Part shown: positions 5,496-16,619 of the stretch, piece after piece | Numbering within the stretch: position 1 is the stretch's first letter | Layout: each line of letters starts with the position of its first letter | Notes under the pieces: model-generated | The model's database searches: none | What the model was told of the DNA's origin: nothing | What the model saw: the letters and a program-made list of their open reading frames with translations, nothing else | Assembly: GCA_018267625.1 (NCBI GenBank) | Contig: JAFDYC010000012.1 | Location: forward strand, 1-64,000 | Direction: 5' to 3' | Source of the DNA: Bacteroidota bacterium | GTDB lineage: Bacteria > Bacteroidota > Bacteroidia > Chitinophagales > Chitinophagaceae | DNA: 64,000 nucleotides | Position numbers and translations under genes: made by a program

Positions 5496-7091
5496 ATGCA
5501 AGCCCGCTTCCTGCCTTATGCCGAGACGCATCGTTTTTCGCGGCTGGCAACCGATTATCTGGCCGGAAATGATTCGCTACAAGGCCTCTATGCTTTTTCT
5601 CCGGATGCGGCCGGCATAACTCAGGCTATTACTTCCAGGCAAAAATTTCCGGTGCAACGTGCCCTACTGCATCAGGTGTTATGCGGACAATATGCAGGGC
5701 TGCCCCCCGAGCAGAAGCTTTCGGAAAACATAGCCCGGCTGACGCAGGAAAACACCTTTACAATCTGTACGGCCCATCAGCCCAACCTGGCCACGGGCTA
5801 TCTCTATTTCATTTACAAAATCGTCCATGCCATTCGTCTGACTCAGGATTTAGGAAAGGAAATGCCGGGGTTTCATTTCGTGCCCGTGTACTACATGGGC
5901 AGTGAAGATGCAGACCTGGAAGAGCTGGGCCGCTTTCGTTTTCGGGAGCGACAGTTTGTATGGGATGCAGCCGGTCAGCAAGGTGCCGTGGGCCGGATGA
6001 ACACAGAGTCGCTGGCCCCTTTGCTTCAGGAGTTGTTTGCCCTGATAGGCCCTCCCGGCCCCCATGCCGAGCGCTTAGAAACGATGTTGCGCGAGGCATA
6101 CCTGGGACAAAAAGATATCGCTGCCGCTACCCGTTGGCTCGTACATGCCTTGTTTGGGAAGTATGGCCTGGTGGTACTGGATGCGGATGATGCCCGGCTC
6201 AAGAAATCGTTTATTCCAGTGATGAAAGAAGAGCTGCTACAGCAAAGCGCCCGCCCGCTGGTGGAGGCAGCAAATGAGCAGCTTCAAGCTTCCGGCTATA
6301 CACCCCAAGCTTTCCCGCGCGACATCAATCTGTTTTACCTCAGGGATCATCTTCGGGGGCGAATCGAAAGGCAGGAGAATGGCTGGCAGGTGCATGGCAG
6401 CAACATCTCCTGGGGGCAGGAGGCCTTGCTTGCAGAACTGTATGATCACCCTGAGCGTTTTTCCCCAAACGTGATTTTACGACCGCTGTATCAGGAGTGT
6501 ATCCTGCCTGACATTTCGTTTATTGGTGGCGGTTCCGAACTAGCCTACTGGATGCAGTTAAAGGTTTTGTTTGCACATCATGGCCTCTTCTACCCTACCG
6601 TGTTGTTGCGCCAGTCGGTGATGTGGCTGAGCGAAAAGCAACAGCAGAGAATGCAGCGTCTTGGCCTCAGCGATGCAGCGATTTTTCTTCAGAAAGATGC
6701 AGCATTTAAATCCTGGATTCAGGAGCATGAACCATCCGATTGGAAACTGGATGATTTGCGTCAGCAGCGGAACATATTGCTGGCGGCACTCCGGGAGAAA
6801 GCAGCTTCTATTGACTCCACATTGGAGCGTAGTGCAGCATCTGTGTCGGCTCGCATGGAGCATCAGTTTTTAGCATTGGAAACGAAAATGCTGCGGAGCC
6901 TGAAACGCAAACACACAGATGCTTTGCAGCAAATAGAAGGCATACTGCAAGCATTGTTTCCGGGAGGAGGGTTGGCAGAAAGAAGCGAGAATTTCATGAC
7001 CTATTACCTGGAATATGGCGAAGCCTTTATAGAAACCTTGCTCCGCGAGATGCGGCCCTTACAGCAGCAGTTTATGATTCTGACACCCTAA
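5496..7091 (+). CDS. bshC: Bacillithiol biosynthesis cysteine-adding enzyme BshC
   Basis: The 531-residue protein matches BshC in length and layout. It has a nucleotidyltransferase-like core with TAHQPNLATGYLYFIYKI near residues 93-110, FVPVYYMGSEDADLEE, and a C-terminal coiled-coil region around residues 400-490. BshC joins cysteine to glucosaminyl-malate, the last step of bacillithiol synthesis, in the cytoplasm. The bshA and bshB genes are not in the window, which is usual because the pathway genes are scattered in Bacteroidota. The start ATG follows a TACCTTAG promoter-like element by 9 bases. Confidence 0.92.
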   Translation: MQARFLPYAETHRFSRLATDYLAGNDSLQGLYAFSPDAAGITQAITSRQKFPVQRALLHQVLCGQYAGLPPEQKLSENIARLTQENTFTICTAHQPNLATGYLYFIYKIVHAIRLTQDLGKEMPGFHFVPVYYMGSEDADLEELGRFRFRERQFVWDAAGQQGAVGRMNTESLAPLLQELFALIGPPGPHAERLETMLREAYLGQKDIAAATRWLVHALFGKYGLVVLDADDARLKKSFIPVMKEELLQQSARPLVEAANEQLQASGYTPQAFPRDINLFYLRDHLRGRIERQENGWQVHGSNISWGQEALLAELYDHPERFSPNVILRPLYQECILPDISFIGGGSELAYWMQLKVLFAHHGLFYPTVLLRQSVMWLSEKQQQRMQRLGLSDAAIFLQKDAAFKSWIQEHEPSDWKLDDLRQQRNILLAALREKAASIDSTLERSAASVSARMEHQFLALETKMLRSLKRKHTDALQQIEGILQALFPGGGLAERSENFMTYYLEYGEAFIETLLREMRPLQQQFMILTP

Positions 7092-7251: not shown

Positions 7252-9051
7252 ATGCACGATTCTGTCCACAGCTTTCATATCCCCGTGATGGGGATCTCCT
7301 TCACTATTGACACGCCCCTCAAGGTGGCACGTTTTGGTATTTCCTCTGTGGTCTCCATCGTGGACGACCAGTTACTGGAAGATATGCGGATGCATTATTG
7401 CAGACAGTTGGGCAAACCCTACGAACCCATCACCTCGCAGGCGAAAGACAGCAGGGCACGGCGCATCACCGCCAGCTTAGATTCCATGCAGGAACTGCTG
7501 ACGAAACAATTAGAAAAGCTAAAGCTGGAAGCCTTTGTACCCGGCGCTGATATCAGCAAGTATTTTGAATTGCTTCCAGCCTCGCCATTGAAGAAAGAAT
7601 ATCAAGCCATGTTGCGTTTGGTGCCCGGCTCACCAGAACGAATTGCAACCGAAGCCAAATTGCGCAGCACCTTGAAGTTTGGCTCGATCGATGTAAACAT
7701 TATGGCCAAGGTGGACAAGGACAATTATGCAAAGGATGGCAGCAAACTTCCTGCTGAATTTGCAGATGCGATGGCTGCCCTTCGTGGTTTTGCGCAAAGC
7801 AAATTGCATGCTTCACTGGTGCTTTCAGCCGGCTATAACCCGCGCCTGTACAGCTATCTTGAGCGTTTTGACTGTTTCTATCCGGATGCAGAAGGCTTAC
7901 TTTTCAAGCAAGTCATTCTTAAAGTCAGCGATTACCGCTCGGCACACGTTCAGGGGAAAATTTTAGCAAAAAAAGGAATCTGGGTTGCCGAATTCCGGAT
8001 CGAATCGGGCTTAAATTGTGGCGGTCATGCCTTCCCTACAGAAGGCATTTTGCAAGGGCCGATTTTGGAAGAATTCCGGGAAAAGCGTGCAGCATTGCGC
8101 CAAGAATTATTTGGCATTTGCAATGAAAGCTTGCGCCAGTCCGGACGTTCTGTTTTTTTAGAAATTCCAAAGCAGCGCATCACGGCACAAGGCGGCGTCG
8201 GCACTGCCGATGAACATAGCCTGCTGTTGGATTATTATGGGCTGGACAGTGTGGGTTGGGGCAGCCCTTTCTTGCTCGTACCGGAGGCTACCGGCGTTGA
8301 CGAGCATACTCGAGAACAGCTCGCTGTCGCTAAGCCAGAAGATTATTACCTGAGCCATGCCTCCCCACTGGGTGTCCCATTCAACAATTTCAGGCCCAGT
8401 ACTTCGGAAGCTCAGCGCAAGCGCCGCATTGAAAAGGACCGCCCGGGCAGCCCTTGCTATAAGAAATATCTTTCCGCCAACACCGAGTTTACGGAACAGC
8501 CCATCTGCACCTCATCACGCCAATACCAGCATTTAAAAATTAAACAGCTTGAGGCCAGCGGGCTGCCTGAAGATGAGTTAAAACAAGCAGTGGAAGCCGT
8601 AGTTGAGAAAGACTGTCTTTGCGAAGGTTTGAGCGTATCTGCCAGCCACAATAATGACCTTCCAATCCGGCATAACCTGACGGCAGTCACCATTTGCCCA
8701 GGCCCAAATCTGGCCTTTTTCTCTGGCACCTTCAGCCTGCGGGAAATGATTGACCATATCTACGGAAGAGGCTTTGTCGGCAACGCAATCCCCCGTCCCC
8801 ATGTGTTCGTCAATGAACTGCAACTCTACATCCGTTACTTCCGGAAAGAACTGAACAAAGGCAAGGCCAGCTTGACAGAAAAGCTATTGCGTAGCCGTGA
8901 AAATTTCCGGAAAAACCTGCTCCTCGGTATCGAATACTATCGGCAACATATGCCCTACATGGCTAGTGGTGATGCCGGTGCCCGAATGCTGTCGCAATTG
9001 AGCCTTGCGGAAGACCAGCTTATGGAAGATGCCCTGGTGTTACAGGCTTAA
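7252..9051 (+). CDS. Conserved protein of unknown function, 599 residues, with a C-terminal cysteine set
   Basis: I do not recognise a named family. The protein is soluble, with no signal peptide or membrane segment. Notable features are GLNCGGHAFPTEG around C256, and a C-terminal group of cysteines at C419, C455, C457 and C482 (KDCLCEGL, TICPGPN) followed by SGTFSLREMIDHIYGRG. The CxC plus two flanking cysteines could ligate a metal or an Fe-S cluster, which is inference. The composition is like its neighbours, with no sign of recent transfer. It converges on argH with 50 bases between them. A GACATTTG element at 7225-7232 is a possible -7 box. Confidence 0.8.
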   Translation: MHDSVHSFHIPVMGISFTIDTPLKVARFGISSVVSIVDDQLLEDMRMHYCRQLGKPYEPITSQAKDSRARRITASLDSMQELLTKQLEKLKLEAFVPGADISKYFELLPASPLKKEYQAMLRLVPGSPERIATEAKLRSTLKFGSIDVNIMAKVDKDNYAKDGSKLPAEFADAMAALRGFAQSKLHASLVLSAGYNPRLYSYLERFDCFYPDAEGLLFKQVILKVSDYRSAHVQGKILAKKGIWVAEFRIESGLNCGGHAFPTEGILQGPILEEFREKRAALRQELFGICNESLRQSGRSVFLEIPKQRITAQGGVGTADEHSLLLDYYGLDSVGWGSPFLLVPEATGVDEHTREQLAVAKPEDYYLSHASPLGVPFNNFRPSTSEAQRKRRIEKDRPGSPCYKKYLSANTEFTEQPICTSSRQYQHLKIKQLEASGLPEDELKQAVEAVVEKDCLCEGLSVSASHNNDLPIRHNLTAVTICPGPNLAFFSGTFSLREMIDHIYGRGFVGNAIPRPHVFVNELQLYIRYFRKELNKGKASLTEKLLRSRENFRKNLLLGIEYYRQHMPYMASGDAGARMLSQLSLAEDQLMEDALVLQA

Positions 9052-9101: not shown

Positions 9102-10403
9102 TCAAAACTTACGCATCACCTGTTCCCATTCATTGCGGATTTGCTCCAGGGCGAGGTTGCCCATGGCGCCTGTTAGTGTATGTGTTGCGGGATTAAAAGC
9201 TTTAGGTTGAAAGTTTCCGGATTCGATTTCCTGCCCAACAGTTTGGTACGCTTCGCGGAAAGGCAGCCCCTGAATCACCAATTCGTTTACCGCTTCAACA
9301 CTGAACAAGTATTGGTATTTGGGCGCCGCCAGGATGTCCGGATTCGGGCGAATCTGTGGCAGGGCATGGAGCAGCATATTCAGGCATTCTTTCAAGGATT
9401 GAATGCCCGGAAACAATATTTCTTTGGTCAGTTGCAGGTCGCGGTGATAACCTGAAGGGAGGTTGGCCAGCAGCAGGGATAGCTCATTAGGCAAAGCCTG
9501 GATACGGTTGCAGCGTGCCCGGATTAACTCGAAGATGTCCGGATTTTTTTTGTGCGGCATGATGCTGCTGCCTGTTGAAAGCACATCGGGAAATGAAAAG
9601 AATCCAAAATCCTGGCCGGCATAGAGGCATACATCCATGGACATTCTGCCTAGCGTAGAAGCTAAAGCAGCGAGGCTCATGGCTACAATTTTTTCGGTTC
9701 TTCCCCGGCTCATTTGTGCTGCGATGACGTTGTAATGCATGGAGTGGAAGCCGAGCAATTCGCTTGTTATTTTCCGGTCTAACGGAAATGAAGAGCCATA
9801 ACCTGCCGCACTACCCAGCGGGTTTTTGTTGCAGACCGAATAGGCGGCTGCCAGCAATTCCATATCGTCCACAAGGCATTCTGCCCAGGCAGCAAACCAC
9901 AGCCCGAAGGAAGAAGGCATAGCTATTTGAAGGTGTGTGTAGCCGGGCATCAGCACGTGTTTGTGCTGCTCACTCAGTGAAATCAGCAGGTCAAAAAACG
10001 CCCCGGAAAGACCCTTAATCTCCTGAAGTGCATCGCGCAGAAAAAGTTTGATGTCTAAGGCAACCTGGTCGTTCCTGCTTCGTCCTGTATGTACTCGCTT
10101 GCCAGCTTCTCCAAGTCTTTCTGTGAGCAACAATTCTATTTGGGAATGCACATCTTCTACTGACTCCTGAATCTGAAACCGGCCGTGCGCGATGTCTTGA
10201 GCAAGCTCATTCAATGCCTGACTGAGTGCATTGAAATCTGCCCCGCTCAGCAGGCCCACCTGATGCAGCATGGCTATATGTGCCTGAGTTCCCTGAACAT
10301 CATAAGGAGCAAGAAGCAAATCAAAATCACGGTCGGAACCTGTGGTGAACGATTCGACGAGTTTGTCTGCATGTGCTGCACCTGATTTTTCCCAAAGCTT
10401 CAT
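9102..10403 (-). CDS. argH: Argininosuccinate lyase
   Basis: The 433-residue protein is a fumarase/aspartase-superfamily member. The signature loop GSSIMPHKKNPD is near residues 275-286, and VHTGRSRNDQVALD binds argininosuccinate. It cleaves argininosuccinate to arginine and fumarate, the last step of the pathway. It is the final gene of the arginine operon. Its ATG overlaps the argE-like stop by 4 bases, which implies translational coupling. Confidence 0.96.
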   Translation of the reverse strand: MKLWEKSGAAHADKLVESFTTGSDRDFDLLLAPYDVQGTQAHIAMLHQVGLLSGADFNALSQALNELAQDIAHGRFQIQESVEDVHSQIELLLTERLGEAGKRVHTGRSRNDQVALDIKLFLRDALQEIKGLSGAFFDLLISLSEQHKHVLMPGYTHLQIAMPSSFGLWFAAWAECLVDDMELLAAAYSVCNKNPLGSAAGYGSSFPLDRKITSELLGFHSMHYNVIAAQMSRGRTEKIVAMSLAALASTLGRMSMDVCLYAGQDFGFFSFPDVLSTGSSIMPHKKNPDIFELIRARCNRIQALPNELSLLLANLPSGYHRDLQLTKEILFPGIQSLKECLNMLLHALPQIRPNPDILAAPKYQYLFSVEAVNELVIQGLPFREAYQTVGQEIESGNFQPKAFNPATHTLTGAMGNLALEQIRNEWEQVMRKF

Positions 10404-11494
10404 AGCAATTGTTTGAGCAGCGCGATATAATCGGCAATTCCCGATTCTATTTCGCTGAGGTAAATGAATTCGTCTGCTGCATGGCTGCGTTCAGAAAGAC
10501 CTGGCCCCATCTTCAAAGCAGGGAAAGGCATCAGGGCCTTGTCAGAAAGGGTGGCAGAGCCAAAACAGGGCTTCCCTAATCGGCTTCCTGCGATTACCAA
10601 AGGATGGGATTCGCTGATGCAGGTAGCATGCAGCTTCATGCTGCGCGGCTGTATGCTGCATGAAGTATGCTCGCGCACGATGGCCAATATCTCTTCGTGG
10701 CTGTAGCAGTCATTCAATCGGATGTCCACCGTGAACTGGCAAGCGGCGGGTATCATATTGTGCAGCTTGCCTGCCTGAATAACGGAGACGTTCATGCAGC
10801 ATGCACCCAATAGCGGAGAAATTTTTGGGAAGCGGTATGTGCGGAACCATTCGAGGTTCGGTAAGGCCTCGTAAATCGCATTCACACCTTCCGTTCGGGC
10901 CGCGTGGCCGGCTACCCCCGCCACCGTACAATCCAGCACCATCAGTCCCTTTTCGGCAAGGGCCATTTTCATGCCCGTAGGTTCTCCCACGATGGCACAG
11001 TCCACACTACCAAGCACAGGCAACAAGGAAGTAATCCCTCCTGTTCCGGATATTTCTTCTTCTGCACTAGCAGCAAAAATCAAATTATAGGCCAGCGATT
11101 CCTGATGATAGAAATACCGGAAAGCTGCGAGCAGGGATACCAGGCAACCACCCGCATCATTGCTCCCCAAGCCAAATAATTTTCCATCTTCAATGGCCGG
11201 AACGAAAGGCTCCCGTGTATATCCCTCATTGGGTCGAACGACATCATGATGGGAATTGAGCAAGAGCGTTGGTTTAGATGGATCAAAATGGCGGCATCTT
11301 GCCCAGACATTATTTCCATTTTGCTGGGGCTGCATGCCAAAACGGGACATGAACTGGCGCAATACCCGGGCACTAGCTTGCTCTTCACGGCTGAATGAAG
11401 GTGTAGCAATGAGCTGGCGCAACAGGCTTACTGCATCTGCATAGAGCCGGGCAACTGAAAGGCTGCTGTTTGAGTGAGTGCTCATAGAGCTCAT
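10400..11494 (-). CDS. argE: M20-family deacylase, acetylornithine / acetylcitrulline deacetylase type
   Basis: The 364-residue M20 metallopeptidase-fold protein carries the zinc ligands and catalytic acids NSHHDVV, GSNDAGG, SAEEEISG and GEPTG, with the C-terminal SHAADEF histidine. In operons with argF', this enzyme removes the acyl group after carbamoylation, giving citrulline for ArgG. It would therefore act on acetyl- or succinyl-citrulline rather than acetylornithine (inference from context). It overlaps argB by 4 bases upstream and argH by 4 bases downstream. Confidence 0.88.
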   Translation of the reverse strand: MSSMSTHSNSSLSVARLYADAVSLLRQLIATPSFSREEQASARVLRQFMSRFGMQPQQNGNNVWARCRHFDPSKPTLLLNSHHDVVRPNEGYTREPFVPAIEDGKLFGLGSNDAGGCLVSLLAAFRYFYHQESLAYNLIFAASAEEEISGTGGITSLLPVLGSVDCAIVGEPTGMKMALAEKGLMVLDCTVAGVAGHAARTEGVNAIYEALPNLEWFRTYRFPKISPLLGACCMNVSVIQAGKLHNMIPAACQFTVDIRLNDCYSHEEILAIVREHTSCSIQPRSMKLHATCISESHPLVIAGSRLGKPCFGSATLSDKALMPFPALKMGPGLSERSHAADEFIYLSEIESGIADYIALLKQLL

Positions 11495-12270
11495 AAGATT
11501 TGTGTGCCTTTGGTTCCTGCCACGAGTTGGGATAAAGCTTCTGCCTGGCCAATGACGACCGTACGGACACCGGCATCAAGAGCAGCGAAGGCATTGTTCA
11601 GTTTTGGAATCATGCCATCGGCAATAGCACCGGCAGCCATTAGTTCTCGGAAACCCGACGCATGGATATGGGGCATGACGGTGGTGTCTTGTTTCGGGTC
11701 GAGGAGCACACCTGCCTTTTCAAAACAGTAGATGATGCGTGTGGGCATTACCTGAGCCAATGCTGCTGCAACCACCTTTGTGATGCTGTCTGCATTGGTG
11801 TTGAGCAAACCGCCCTGGCCATCATGCGTGAGCGGAGCAATGACCGGAACCATTCCTCTTTGTAACAAGTCCCGCAGGAAGCTTACATGAATCCCTCGTT
11901 CATGAACATCGCCTACATAGCCGAAGTCAATTTCAGCAACCGCCCTTCGTGTAGCCCGAATGCTGTTTCCATCTGCTCCGGTAATCCCGAGGGCGTTGCA
12001 GCCCAAGGATTGTAGGGAAGCTGTCAGCCGCTTATTCAGCAAACCCGCATACACCATCGTTACTAATTCTAAAGTGGCTTCGTCCGTGATACGTCGTCCG
12101 GCAACATACTTCGATTCGATACCTAATCGGGCACCAATTGCCGTAGCCATTTTCCCACCGCCATGCACCAGGATTTTGGGGCCTACCAACTCTGCAAACG
12201 CATTTAAAAACGCTTGCAGCCGATGCGGAGCATCCAACACATGGCCACCAATTTTTACGACAGTAATCAT
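11491..12270 (-). CDS. argB: N-acetylglutamate kinase
   Basis: The 259-residue amino acid kinase has VVKIGGHVLD at the N-terminus, the VHGGGKMATAIGARLG substrate loop and LNTNADSITKVVA near the nucleotide site. It phosphorylates N-acetylglutamate (or the acyl equivalent used here), the second step of arginine synthesis. It lacks a long N-terminal helix of the type linked with arginine-inhibited hexameric enzymes. The ATG overlaps the argF' stop by 4 bases. Confidence 0.95.
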   Translation of the reverse strand: MITVVKIGGHVLDAPHRLQAFLNAFAELVGPKILVHGGGKMATAIGARLGIESKYVAGRRITDEATLELVTMVYAGLLNKRLTASLQSLGCNALGITGADGNSIRATRRAVAEIDFGYVGDVHERGIHVSFLRDLLQRGMVPVIAPLTHDGQGGLLNTNADSITKVVAAALAQVMPTRIIYCFEKAGVLLDPKQDTTVMPHIHASGFRELMAAGAIADGMIPKLNNAFAALDAGVRTVVIGQAEALSQLVAGTKGTQIL

Positions 12271-13232
12271 GATTTATGAGCGATGGATTTCAGAAGGTTT
12301 GCAAGTACCGCTTGAGCGGCCCATACCCGGTTGGCTGCTTGTGCTGTAACCAGACTTGACGCGCTGTTGAGTACCGAATCGCTCAATTCCACATTGCGGC
12401 GTACCGGCAGGCAGTGCATCACTTTTGCTTGATTCGTCTGCCGAAGTTTTGTTTCCGTCAGCATCCAGTCTCCAGGCACTTCTGGCGTACTGCCATAGGC
12501 TTCATAGGAGCTCCAATTCTTGACATAGACAAAGTCGGCCTTATGGAGCGCCTGCTCCTGGTCATAAATGATCTGTGCTCCCTGAGTGAATGAATCTTTA
12601 AGAGCATATCCTTCGGGATGGGTGATGGTAAAGTCGGCTGCGTCCCATTCAATCATCCATTGCGCAAAAGAATTTGCTACGCATTGAGGAAGTGGTTTCA
12701 CATGAGGCGCCCAGGTCAGCACCACTTTGGGGCGGCGATTTTCCTTCCATGCCTCACGGATGGTCAGTATATCGGATAAGCTTTGTAAGGGATGTAGCGT
12801 TGCGCTTTCCAAGCTGAGCAGGGGCACTCCGGAATGGGCTTTCAATTGCTGAAAAAGTACCTCGCTGTAATCCTGATGAGCATCTTGCAAGCTTGGGAAG
12901 CTGCGCACCGCGAGTATGTCGAAATAGCTGCCCAAGACAGGGGCTGCATCCCGGATGTGTTCGACACTGCTGCCATTCATCACAACACCATCTTCCAGCT
13001 CCAGCGCCCATCCCTCTTTCCCTACATCAAAAACGATGGCTTGCATCCCGAGCTGTGATGCGGCCACCTGGGTGCTGAGTCGGGTGCGTAAGGATGGGTT
13101 CAGAAACAACAGGCCCAGGCGTTTTCCTTTGCCAAGAGCAGCGTCTTTCAGTGGGGCCAGCTTGTAAGCAGCCGCCTGATCCAAAAGCGTGTCCACATTG
13201 TCTGCGTCTTCAACAGATAAAAAATGCTTCAT
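12267..13232 (-). CDS. argF': N-acyl-ornithine carbamoyltransferase (ArgF' type)
   Basis: The 321-residue transcarbamylase has NPSLRTRLSTQ (carbamoyl-phosphate binding), HPLQSLSD, KVVLTWAPH and MHCLPVRRNVELSD. The TWAPH segment and overall spacing match the Bacteroidota and xanthomonad enzymes acting on succinyl- or acetyl-ornithine rather than free ornithine. The open frame extends to 13331, inside argD. I chose the ATG at 13232 because it gives the family start MKHFLSVED and leaves a 28-base gap. The residue three before the conserved H of VEHIRDA is discussed as a finding. Confidence 0.93.
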   Translation of the reverse strand: MKHFLSVEDADNVDTLLDQAAAYKLAPLKDAALGKGKRLGLLFLNPSLRTRLSTQVAASQLGMQAIVFDVGKEGWALELEDGVVMNGSSVEHIRDAAPVLGSYFDILAVRSFPSLQDAHQDYSEVLFQQLKAHSGVPLLSLESATLHPLQSLSDILTIREAWKENRRPKVVLTWAPHVKPLPQCVANSFAQWMIEWDAADFTITHPEGYALKDSFTQGAQIIYDQEQALHKADFVYVKNWSSYEAYGSTPEVPGDWMLTETKLRQTNQAKVMHCLPVRRNVELSDSVLNSASSLVTAQAANRVWAAQAVLANLLKSIAHKS

Positions 13233-13260
13233 TGAATTGTAGTGTTTATTGATGTTCCAC

Positions 13261-14415
13261 TCAGTAAGCCTGTTCTGCTTGTTTTTGTAGCTGCAATTCC
13301 TGCCGGATCGCATCCAGAAAGAGCATCGCATCTTCTGGTTTCAGGTTGAGCGCCGGCAGCAGCCTAATGACTTGGGGCTTCGCAGCGCCCGTAAAAATTT
13401 TGTGTTTGTAGAGCAGGTTGTTTCGTAGAGAGGCATGTTCCGGAACATCAAAGCCGATCATCAATCCCCGGCCACGAACCTGTTCCAATGCTGGGAAAGA
13501 ACGGAGCTGTGCCTGGAGCCAGGAGCCTGTCTGCGCTGCCTGCTGCATCAGTTGTTCTTCCTGAATTACTTCCAACACTGCCAAGGCTGCTGCACAAGCC
13601 AGCGGATTACCGCCAAATGTGGTGCCGAGCATTCCATGCCAGGGCCTGATGTGAGGGGCAATTAAGATACCCGCAACCGGAAAGCCATTGCCCATGCCTT
13701 TTGCAACAGAGTAGATGTCAGCTTGCACTCCGGAATAATCATGCGAGAAAAACTGGCCCGTACGCCCGTAACCACACTGCACACTATCGGCAATAAACAC
13801 GGCTCCGGAAGCCAGGCAAAGCCTGCGAATCGCTTGTAGGAATGCATCTGTCGCCACACGGATACCGCCCACTCCCTGAATGCCTTCAACAAGGACTGCA
13901 GCCGTGTTACTACCCTCTTCAGCAAACCAGGATTCTAGTGCCTCCACATCATTAAAGGGCAGGAAATGCACCTGATTACTCTCATTTACGGGCGCTATGA
14001 TGCTGGAATTATCCGTAGCAGATACCGCCAGCGATGTGCGGCCATGAAAGGCGCCTGTGAAGGCAATTATTTTCTTCCTGCCTGTGTGAAAAGAAGCCAG
14101 CTTCATGGCGTTTTCATTGGCTTCCGCTCCCGAATTGCAGAGGAAAAGCTGAAACTCTTTTTTGCCCGATACTTCACCCAAAAGTTCTGCCAGCTCTTGC
14201 TGAATGGAAAGCTTTACCGAGTTGGAATAGAATCCGATTTTACCGAGTTGCCGGTTGAGTCGGGCTACATAATGAGGGTGAGTATGGCCAATAGAAATCA
14301 CGGCATGGCCGCCATATAAATCCAGATAGCGTTGCCCGTGTTCATCCCACACAAAGCTGCCTGCTGCTTGTGCGATCTGTACCTCTTGTAGCGGGTAGAC
14401 ATCGAATAATTTCAT
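13261..14415 (-). CDS. argD: Acetylornithine aminotransferase
   Basis: The 384-residue class III PLP aminotransferase contains NSGAEANENAMKLA, FHGRTSLAVSAT, the ADSVQCGYGRTG aspartate and SVAKGMGNGFPVAG with the Schiff-base lysine. It converts the acyl-glutamate semialdehyde to acyl-ornithine. It lies 13 bases after argC and 28 bases before argF', within the same operon. Confidence 0.95.
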   Translation of the reverse strand: MKLFDVYPLQEVQIAQAAGSFVWDEHGQRYLDLYGGHAVISIGHTHPHYVARLNRQLGKIGFYSNSVKLSIQQELAELLGEVSGKKEFQLFLCNSGAEANENAMKLASFHTGRKKIIAFTGAFHGRTSLAVSATDNSSIIAPVNESNQVHFLPFNDVEALESWFAEEGSNTAAVLVEGIQGVGGIRVATDAFLQAIRRLCLASGAVFIADSVQCGYGRTGQFFSHDYSGVQADIYSVAKGMGNGFPVAGILIAPHIRPWHGMLGTTFGGNPLACAAALAVLEVIQEEQLMQQAAQTGSWLQAQLRSFPALEQVRGRGLMIGFDVPEHASLRNNLLYKHKIFTGAAKPQVIRLLPALNLKPEDAMLFLDAIRQELQLQKQAEQAY

Positions 14416-14428
14416 CGTTGATTGAATA

Positions 14429-15418
14429 TTAAAAAGCGGAAGCTTTCAGCCTCAAGCCAGCATCTTCAGGCAAGTCAAAAAGAAGGTTCATGTTTTGCAA
14501 AGCCTGTCCGGAAGCGCCCTTAAGAAGGTTGTCCAGGGCCGAATGCACAGCAAGTTGATTCCCTGATTTTTCGAGTGAGATAATGCACTTGTTCGTGTTC
14601 AGCACACGTTTCATGTCAACAGGCTCTTTGGAGAAGTGCGTAAAGCAGGCATCCCGATAATAGTCCTGGTACAACCCGAAAATTTCTTCTTCCTGCCAGG
14701 CACAATCCACAACGGAGCTGACGAATATGCCGCGGGTAAAATCGCCGCGCCAGGGTACGAAATGAACTTCCGGTTCTTGTTGCCCGGATACGCTGCTGAG
14801 TGTCTGCTGCACTTCTGCCACATGCTGATGCTTCAGGGTTTTGTAGGCCTGGATGTTTCCTGCCCGCCAGCTAAAATGGGCACTCGCAGAAAACGATTGG
14901 CCGGCACCAGTGCTTCCGGTGATGCCTGTGGTGTGAACCGTTCCCAGCAAACCCTGAGCTGCCAGAGGCAGAAGCCCCAGTTGAATAGCGGTAGCAAAAC
15001 AACCCGGGTTAGCAATGTTGCCGGCTAGTTTTAGGGTATCCCGGTTCCATTCCGGAAGCCCATACACAAACCGCCTGGAGCCAATGACAGCTTGCTCATG
15101 CAGCCGAAAATCCTGAGACAGGTCAATGATTTTTAGTTCCTCCGGAAGCGGGTGTTCTGCGAGAAAAAGCCTTGCAGCTCCATGTCCTAGGCAGAGGAAC
15201 AGAACATCAACATCTGCATTAATTGCCTCACAGAATTGAAGTTCAGTATCGCCCAACAAGTCCTGGTGAATGCTGCAGATAGGTTTACCGGCACTACTCC
15301 GGCTTTGTGCGAAGACAAGTTCTGCCTGAGGATGCCTGAGCAAAAGACGAATCAGTTCTCCACCCGCATAACCTGCTGCCCCCACGACTCCTGCTCGGAT
15401 AGTTTTAGAGCTTTGCAT
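14429..15418 (-). CDS. argC: N-acetyl-gamma-glutamyl-phosphate reductase
   Basis: ArgC has the NADP-binding GVVGAAGYAGGELIRLL at its start and the catalytic cysteine in NIANPGCFATAIQLGLLPL. The frame stays open upstream to 15511 inside argG. Candidate ATGs lie at 15436, 15430 and 15418. I chose 15418 (MQSSKTIRAGVVG, 329 residues) because family members begin a few residues before the nucleotide-binding strand. That start overlaps the argG stop by 14 bases. The exact start is uncertain, the identity is not. Confidence 0.93.
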   Translation of the reverse strand: MQSSKTIRAGVVGAAGYAGGELIRLLLRHPQAELVFAQSRSSAGKPICSIHQDLLGDTELQFCEAINADVDVLFLCLGHGAARLFLAEHPLPEELKIIDLSQDFRLHEQAVIGSRRFVYGLPEWNRDTLKLAGNIANPGCFATAIQLGLLPLAAQGLLGTVHTTGITGSTGAGQSFSASAHFSWRAGNIQAYKTLKHQHVAEVQQTLSSVSGQQEPEVHFVPWRGDFTRGIFVSSVVDCAWQEEEIFGLYQDYYRDACFTHFSKEPVDMKRVLNTNKCIISLEKSGNQLAVHSALDNLLKGASGQALQNMNLLFDLPEDAGLRLKASAF

Positions 15419-16619
15419 TTTTGAGTTCATCGTCATTTTTGTGGTTGACACGGTGAAAAATGGAAACTCCATTCCCGAAGATTTTTGCAAAGCCCCGAAC
15501 ATCGTTACCATCCCAGGTGTTGTTCATTTCACCATAAGAGCCGAATTGCGGGTTCATCAAATCATGCTCCGATTCGATACCGGTAAGCGTGAAATGTTTT
15601 TGCTCTAAACGGATGAAAACTGTCCCGCAAACTGTATGCTGCGTGTCTTCCAGAAAGCATTCGATGTTCCGCATGGTGGGGTCGAGGAATTGCCCTTCAT
15701 GTAGCCAATGGCCATACCAGCCGGCGAGTTGTTCTTTCCAATAGAGTTGCCATTTGCTGAGCGTATGCTTCTCGAGCAGGTGGTGCGCCTTGATGATGAT
15801 GATAGGTGCCGCCGCTTCAAAACCTACACGCCCCTTGATGCCGATAATCGTGTCGCCCACATGGATGTCTCGGCCAATGCCGTAGGGTTGTGCTAAGGCC
15901 TGCAGTTGCTGAATCAGTGTAACCGGATCTCCTACTACGCCATTGAGCGCGTAGAGTTCTCCTTTTTCAAAACGAAGACTCAACGCTGTGGCGGTGGTTG
16001 CTGTGCATGGTGTGGGCCAGGCCGCTTCGGGTAAATATTCTTTGCTGCCGAGCGTCTCCTTTCCGCCTACAGATGTGCCCCAAAGACCTTTGTTGATGCT
16101 GTATTGCGCCTTACTGAAATCCAGGTCGAAGCCCTGTTTGCTGAGCCATTCAATCTCTGCTTCTCGGCTCAGGCGCAGGTCGCGAATCGGCGTGATGATG
16201 TCTATGCCTGGCAGCAGGCCATGAAAAGCCATGTCGAAGCGAATCTGGTCATTACCGGCACCGGTGGATCCATGAGAGATGGCATCGGCGCCGATTTCTT
16301 TTGCATACTGAGCAATGCTGATGGCTTGCAACATTCGCTCGGCACTCACACTGAGCGGATAGCTGGAATTTTTCAGGACGTTTCCGAAAATCAAGAAGCG
16401 AATGCAGCGTTCGTAATACTGCTGTGTGAGGTCCAGAATTTTAAAAGAAGCTACCTGAAGCGCCTGCGCCCGCACGGAAATAGCTTGTAAATCTTCCGGG
16501 CTGAAACCACCGGTCTGAACGGTTACGGCATGCACCTGGTAGCCACATTGCCGCTGCAGATAGGCGGCGCAAAAGCTGGTGTCTAATCCGCCGCTGAAGG
16601 CGAGTACAATATTTTTCAT
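15405..16619 (-). CDS. argG: Argininosuccinate synthase
   Basis: The 404-residue protein starts with the PP-loop motif AFSGGLDTSFC and contains SHGSTGAGNDQIRFD, both diagnostic for ArgG. It joins citrulline and aspartate using ATP. It is the second gene of the operon, and its ATG overlaps the stop of the GNAT gene by 4 bases. It belongs to the group found in Bacteroidota arginine operons, with LWGTSVGGKETLGS before the C-terminal domain. Confidence 0.95.
   Translation of the reverse strand: MKNIVLAFSGGLDTSFCAAYLQRQCGYQVHAVTVQTGGFSPEDLQAISVRAQALQVASFKILDLTQQYYERCIRFLIFGNVLKNSSYPLSVSAERMLQAISIAQYAKEIGADAISHGSTGAGNDQIRFDMAFHGLLPGIDIITPIRDLRLSREAEIEWLSKQGFDLDFSKAQYSINKGLWGTSVGGKETLGSKEYLPEAAWPTPCTATTATALSLRFEKGELYALNGVVGDPVTLIQQLQALAQPYGIGRDIHVGDTIIGIKGRVGFEAAAPIIIIKAHHLLEKHTLSKWQLYWKEQLAGWYGHWLHEGQFLDPTMRNIECFLEDTQHTVCGTVFIRLEQKHFTLTGIESEHDLMNPQFGSYGEMNNTWDGNDVRGFAKIFGNGVSIFHRVNHKNDDELKNAKL

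Follow-up and report, generated by a model that had tools for sequence, protein, structure and literature searches.

An intact gene of an unnamed family

The window, by which we mean the whole stretch of 64,000 nucleotides analysed here (from a member of the Chitinophagaceae, Bacteroidota), carries at 7252-9051 on its forward strand an intact gene of 599 codons plus stop, complete by its translation and its homologues, with the stop codon included in the range and no internal stop. The initial annotation had called it a full-length, well-formed gene for a protein that could not be placed in a family, and both statements were borne out: at E≤1 the protein is matched by no model of Pfam, NCBIfam or PADLOC, these including the Pfam NMO model (PF03060) and the NCBIfam models of FabK (TIGR03151) and PfaD (TIGR02814), and it is not among the PF03060 matches in its own genome. 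Its single PHROG match is at chance level (E 0.34) and a PDB sequence search returned just helix-rich chance matches. Scans of the family member by member turned up weak and scattered hits, for the most part on helical families (as judged from the first 25 of 52 Pfam families), and one unnamed model, NF001645, matches 21 of 54 members (best E 2.3e-4). The protein belongs to an unnamed family that is widespread in Bacteroidota, with full-length homologues of about 46-60% identity, far beyond chance, in many genera; no description of this family was found among open-licence PMC papers.

Of 395 genomes sampled evenly across the phylum, 142 carry the family, as do 75 of the 171 genera sampled. Homologues were found in 14 of 59 relatives (one being a fragment at a contig edge) and in one of the three other genomes of the same genus. 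A scan of contigs gave 63 loci, a lower bound as the exact peptide patterns used came from one sequence and miss others, and these loci include Chitinophaga, Runella, Dyadobacter, Arenibacter, Maribacter, Tenacibaculum and MAGs labelled Ignavibacteria and Calditrichales. Plasmid or phage cargo was rejected as an explanation, since no record in the plasmid and phage collections matches the family. A tree of 48 proteins departs from taxonomy: Runella (Spirosomataceae) falls among Chitinophagaceae, the same-genus protein lies (weakly) beside Parapedobacter and Dyadobacter, and the proteins of the Ignavibacteria and Calditrichales MAGs, whose labels may be wrong, lie among Flavobacteriaceae. No conserved partner gene was found, the most widespread neighbour cluster occurring at 11 of 62 loci (with representatives in Arenibacter), and a gene on the same strand lies within 100 bases upstream at one of 60 loci and downstream at nine of 60. 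Operon guilt by association was likewise rejected, as no neighbour is widely kept across the 62 loci, among which no linked fatty-acid gene was seen. As the tree is off the taxonomy and there is no conserved partner, the family gene looks like one for a self-contained enzyme transferred between lineages.

The gene lies downstream of what we take to be a bshC-like gene of bacillithiol synthesis (5496-7091) and is followed by a reverse-strand cluster (9102-16619), presumably for arginine synthesis, with an apparent acetylornithine-type carbamoyltransferase. In the same-genus locus (L007) the family gene does not have the bshC-like gene next to it, and for this reason a link with bacillithiol was dropped. 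At two MAG loci a gene that we take to be tryptophanase-like (L025:2489-3862 and L026:2930-4336) lies 7-45 bases downstream of the family gene, an arrangement seen at no other locus of the set. In addition to its full-length copy, one genome (G149) has two adjoining partial matches (C1:4371176-4372137), the second with two in-frame TGA codons, which read as a decayed second copy.

Predicted fold and homology of the barrel

The AlphaFold2 model of the protein (mean pLDDT 87.3, pTM 0.89, locally less confident at 256-258, which takes in C256, and around 401-410, which takes in C402) predicts an FMN-type TIM barrel followed by a cysteine subdomain. All of the parts lie on the forward strand. The barrel is placed at residues 1-344 (7252-8283) from the modelled secondary structure and the fold matches, the boundaries being our own reading. 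Between its strands 2 and 3 the model and alignment put an insertion of about 100 mostly helical residues (39-142; 7366-7677) that is absent from FabX, with predicted helices at 39-53, 67-92, 100-106, 112-121 and 128-139. The fold matches place the cysteine subdomain, a proposed [4Fe-4S] domain, at residues 345-506 (8284-8769), and beyond it the model has C-terminal helices at 518-598 (8803-9045), past the match to FabX, which ends at model residue 506.

Structure prediction with fold comparison had been suggested as a check on the initial annotation, and it returned as the closest solved fold FabX of Helicobacter pylori, an FMN/[4Fe-4S] acyl-ACP dehydrogenase/isomerase (PMC8626469). With the whole model Foldseek put FabX at the top (E 3.7e-10), followed by PfaD (E 8.8e-10), trans-AT enoyl reductases, FabK and nitronate monooxygenases. 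In VIA-align five FabX entries lead (Z 24.1-25.1 over 320-332 residues, rmsd 2.9-3.1), with FabK below them at Z 23.0 and less, PfaD and the trans-AT enoyl reductases at Z 17.9-20.1 (rmsd 4.4-6.4) and the nitronate and nitroalkane enzymes at Z 17-21, well below FabX. The match extends over the C-terminal cysteine subdomain: 331 residues of the FabX entry 9lt5 are aligned over chain 12-363 and the FabX barrel ends at 266 (PMC8626469), so that the FabX Fe-S subdomain, 97 residues long, must contribute at least 76 of the aligned positions. When the subdomain was predicted alone (residues 343-516, pLDDT 79.6), VIA-align again put the five FabX entries first among the 79 chains passed on by Foldseek, at low Z (3.5-3.8, 112-116 residues, rmsd 3.2-3.5, chain 241-363), above PfaD types (Z 2.9-3.4, rmsd 7.4-7.5) and FabK (Z 2.2-2.8). 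In this comparison of models it is the ranking and not Z that carries the information. Foldseek with the subdomain alone gave PfaD-type reductases at the top, all with E≥0.25.

These lists bear on two other explanations. The protein might be an enoyl reductase like FabK or PfaD in which the cysteines hold zinc or serve the structure and there is no Fe-S cluster. The whole-model matches to FabK, PfaD and trans-AT enoyl reductases (Z 17.9-23.0) and the PfaD types at the top of the subdomain Foldseek list (all E≥0.25) speak for this, FabK (5gvj, 4iql; Z up to 23.0) sharing the barrel fold and the GGH motif and the PfaD and trans-AT enzymes (6lkc, 4z9r, 4yx6, 4cw5, 4z38) coming second in the whole-model Foldseek search. 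We consider it quite unlikely, however, because FabX ranks higher in both VIA-align lists, PfaD having the larger rmsd and lower Z in a comparison made by fold and family model, and because five invariant cysteines lie in the subdomain equivalent to the one that holds the FabX cluster. FabK has an NAD(P)H-binding region in place of the Fe-S subdomain (PMC8626469). No PfaD gene scoring over the cut-off was found in 198 Bacteroidota genomes. A nitronate monooxygenase detoxifying nitro compounds would share the superfamily fold (Z 17-21), and a stand-alone, horizontally spread gene would suit such a role, but PF03060 misses the gene in its own genome, enzymes of this kind rank well below FabX in the fold match, and the [4Fe-4S] cluster is, as stated in PMC8626469, absent from all characterised NMO-family members other than FabX; this explanation we regard as highly improbable.

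Homology was computed through bridging relatives from Bacteroidota, collected by a search with the NMO model and with a profile of one group. They fall into F2 (seven Bacteroidales proteins), F3 (five) and a FabX type (five), the last giving a profile that matches FabX over its length (E 1.2e-93). With the joint profile of these 17 proteins every one of the 75 family members is retrieved (best E 1.9e-9, median 3.7e-6), whereas the best of 798 neighbour decoys reaches E 0.0067 and no reversed sequence does better than 8.8. Seventy of the 75 members beat the best decoy, the start of which resembles, in our reading, an alpha/beta hydrolase, and five score worse. A profile restricted to the barrel retrieves 121 of 121 (best E 6.8e-8, median 1.9e-4), against 0.15 for the best of 363 shuffles and 0.34 for the best of 121 reversed sequences. 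Profiles of single groups are weak (F3 finds six of 75, best E 0.5) and hhalign probabilities are 4-21%. By these profile scores the homology of the barrel to the NMO/FabK/FabX superfamily is beyond chance. The part after SPxG, taken alone, is similar to the bridging groups at chance level (best E 0.052, shuffles 0.056), and the case for the subdomain is therefore built on its position, its cysteines and its fold.

Two of the bridging groups share features with the family. F2 (FabX-like proteins of Bacteroidales, P0002-P0004 at L113, L116 and L117, 418-446 residues as read) shares with the family a K-x-C-L-C-x-G-L/M motif and two preceding cysteines and has FabX as its best PDB sequence match (E 6.6e-28), but it lacks an insertion of the family's size, has an extra CWTC pair and is clearly recognised by PF03060. 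Its 83 genomes, out of 395 from Bacteroidota, fall under two family codes, 81 under one and two under the other. F3 (L151-L155, from other Bacteroidota, 483-524 residues by open frame, the 752-residue frame of L152 being unusually long) has the C...C...CLC pattern, an insertion after the second strand and a post-barrel S-P-T-G, but retains the GGMG loop, and its direct similarity to the family is weak (hhalign E 0.0092). It is perhaps another unnamed Fe-S flavoenzyme family. L151, the one member of F3 tested, has a single NCBIfam match, which is to the FabK model and falls far short of the cut-off. A further NMO-like protein (L161) has, in our reading, a twin-arginine signal-like, lipoprotein-like leader (SRRDFLKK...LSSC) and so is possibly exported.

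Conserved residues and the comparison with FabX

Invariance was counted in two sets, the first being 75 full-length homologues (77 loci less L014, at a contig edge, and L077, a fragment) and the second 125 rows (121 distinct) that include 20 loci from the low-scoring end of the match list, one of these (L188) repeating L013. The choice of reading frame for this wider set demanded the strings CGGH and GPN, by which 0 of 50 were lost. The family alignment A1 holds 54 sequences (the window protein and 53 of 62 full-length loci) and A5 holds 52 of those 54, while the joint alignment with F2, F3 and the FabX type took in 14 of the 54. The protein has nine cysteines. Three of them (50, 208 and 290) vary, whereas 256, 402, 419, 455, 457 and 482 are conserved without exception in both sets (75 of 75 homologues, 125 of 125 rows). 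The initial annotation had listed cysteines 419, 455, 457 and 482 and the motifs KDCLCEGL, TICPGPN and NCGGHAF, all of which are where it put them, and had asked for the conservation of the four; all are invariant in both sets, but the invariant C402 and C256 (the latter inside NCGGHAF) were absent from its list. Within the family the spacing is C402-x16-C419-x35-C455-x-C457, plus C482.

According to PMC8626469, FabX contacts its flavin through N99, E175, G180, G220, G221, Q240, T243, S179, F339, T340 and G341, has H182 as catalytic residue with S273 as a partner hydrogen-bonded to it, and holds its cluster on C300, C304, C308 and C320 in the C-terminal subdomain. In the joint alignment N149, GGH259, GG314-315, S371 and G374 agree across all groups, whether or not the cysteines are masked. 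N149 (7696-7698; 125 of 125 rows), the equivalent of N99, is asparagine throughout the four groups. GG314-315, in ITAQGGVG (310-317; 8179-8202), stands by alignment and conservation for G220-G221, and SPLG (371-374; 8362-8373) corresponds to S273-G276, with S371, present in 125 of 125 rows, at S273. ESGLNCGGHAF (251-261; 8002-8034), with E251, C256 and GGH259, is from alignment and conservation a predicted flavin and catalytic loop, although local confidence in the model is low at 256-258. Both E251 and GGH259 occur in 125 of 125 rows, and the latter aligns with the GGH of F2, F3 and the FabX types (TIM barrel and GGH loop being common to the family and FabX, as seen in 7e1q, 9lt5 and other entries). 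NCGGHAF, which had been taken for a separate motif, would thus by alignment with FabX be the catalytic GGH loop of the barrel. The family loop is one residue longer than that of FabX between E and GGH, and because E251 is one residue farther from GGH than E175 is, the alignment programs pair it with V. CPGPN (482-486; 8695-8709), invariant, is a proposed flavin-contact loop near the end of the match, where FabX has F339-T-G-A-N343; in the localpair alignment (FX group F5) C482 falls on F339, while genafpair leaves it unaligned.

The proposed cluster ligands are C402 (8455-8457), C419 (8506-8508) and the pair C455 and C457 in KDCLCEGL (453-460; 8608-8631), the motif shared with F2. With the cysteines unmasked, all four coincide with cysteines that are invariant in F2 and F3, and one of two programs also places C402, C419 and C457 on cysteines of the FabX type. 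With masking, C402 and C419 were recovered in none of three runs and C455 and C457 match F2 in part, and because the masked alignment fails to recover it the ligand set is a motif-based proposal.

The protein also differs from FabX in several respects. It has 599 residues against 363, the family has the insertion at 39-142 and the tail at 518-598, and the cysteine spacing is C-x16-C-x35-C-x-C against C-x3-C-x3-C-x11-C in FabX. The family lacks the N-terminal GGMG flavin loop of the superfamily, having V-M-G-I in its place, and has G335 at FabX Q240 and C256 at the position of S179. Its own proposed cluster spacing, the insertion, the tail and the two cysteines predicted on the flavin side are new relative to FabX. 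As the cysteine spacing and the GGMG loop differ, we do not call the protein FabX or file it under PF03060.

Proposed function

Taking the model together with these comparisons, we consider it reasonably likely that the protein is a flavoenzyme of the NMO/FabK/FabX superfamily with a FabX-like [4Fe-4S] subdomain after the barrel. The catalytic motif would most likely be GGH259 and the ligands most likely C402, C419, C455 and C457, with C256 and C482 probably lining the flavin pocket. The initial annotation had proposed an enzyme, rather than a structural protein, with an Fe-S or zinc site on cysteines 419, 455, 457 and 482. From the invariant cysteines and the FabX fold the enzyme and the cysteine metal site appear sound, with Fe-S the most likely, and 419, 455 and 457 are likely ligands, but C482, lying on the FMN contact F339, is probably none and C402 had been missed. 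In the mechanism that we infer, which extends to the binding of FMN and cluster, the direction of electron flow, the acceptor and the substrate, FMN would be held in the barrel by N149, E251 and GG314-315; by analogy with FabX, H259 of the GGH loop would abstract a proton at C2 of the substrate and FMN would accept the hydride. The cluster would then store electrons or pass them on one at a time, and, again as in FabX, an electron would leave it to an acceptor, which in FabX is O2 (PMC8626469). Tentatively, the substrate may be an acyl thioester, either acyl-ACP or acyl-CoA, that would undergo oxidation or reduction at C2-C3; this type is favoured because it is the commonest among the top fold matches (FabK, FabX, PfaD and fatty-acid synthase domains).

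A narrower alternative is that the protein is the true counterpart of FabX, which would dehydrogenate medium-chain acyl-ACP, isomerise the product to cis-3-enoyl-ACP and make unsaturated fatty acids. FabX is the closest fold, and basic residues R229 (125 of 125 rows) and K241 (120 of 125) fall on K152 and R164 of the FabX docking helix, with I237 on R160, if by our count the extra residue precedes GGH. Also in its favour, among the matches listed the 142 genomes with the family include none of the 83 with F2, none of the five with the FabX type and none of five sampled for F3, a non-overlap that is confounded by lineage and mostly explained by it. Against it, carriers have desaturase genes no less often than non-carriers (32 of 43 versus 37 of 75), so that complementarity with fatty-acid desaturases was not seen in these genomes, and the tree is off the species tree and the gene is missing in most close relatives, unlike an essential lipid gene. 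On balance we think this unlikely. The oxidase model PF00115, of a family that takes in more than aerobic oxidases, has a match in every one of the 43 carriers and in 68 of the 75 non-carriers, a difference again confounded by lineage.

The two cysteines predicted on the flavin side raise the more speculative idea of a three-centre redox enzyme new to the superfamily, with FMN, [4Fe-4S] and a redox-active or substrate-binding C256/C482 pair, which we hold to be distinctly unlikely. If it were true, the pair could form a disulfide reduced by the flavin, or a thiol could bind substrate or flavin, and the chemistry would be of a thiol/disulfide or adduct type with no fatty-acid desaturation. If instead the favoured reading, that of a superfamily flavoenzyme with a FabX-like [4Fe-4S] subdomain, is right, the whole unnamed family would share this architecture, with a different cluster spacing and two extra cysteines on the flavin side. 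It would then offer a clear test of the role of the cluster in an NMO-type fold, and an enzyme type could be assigned in many genomes where the databases give none.
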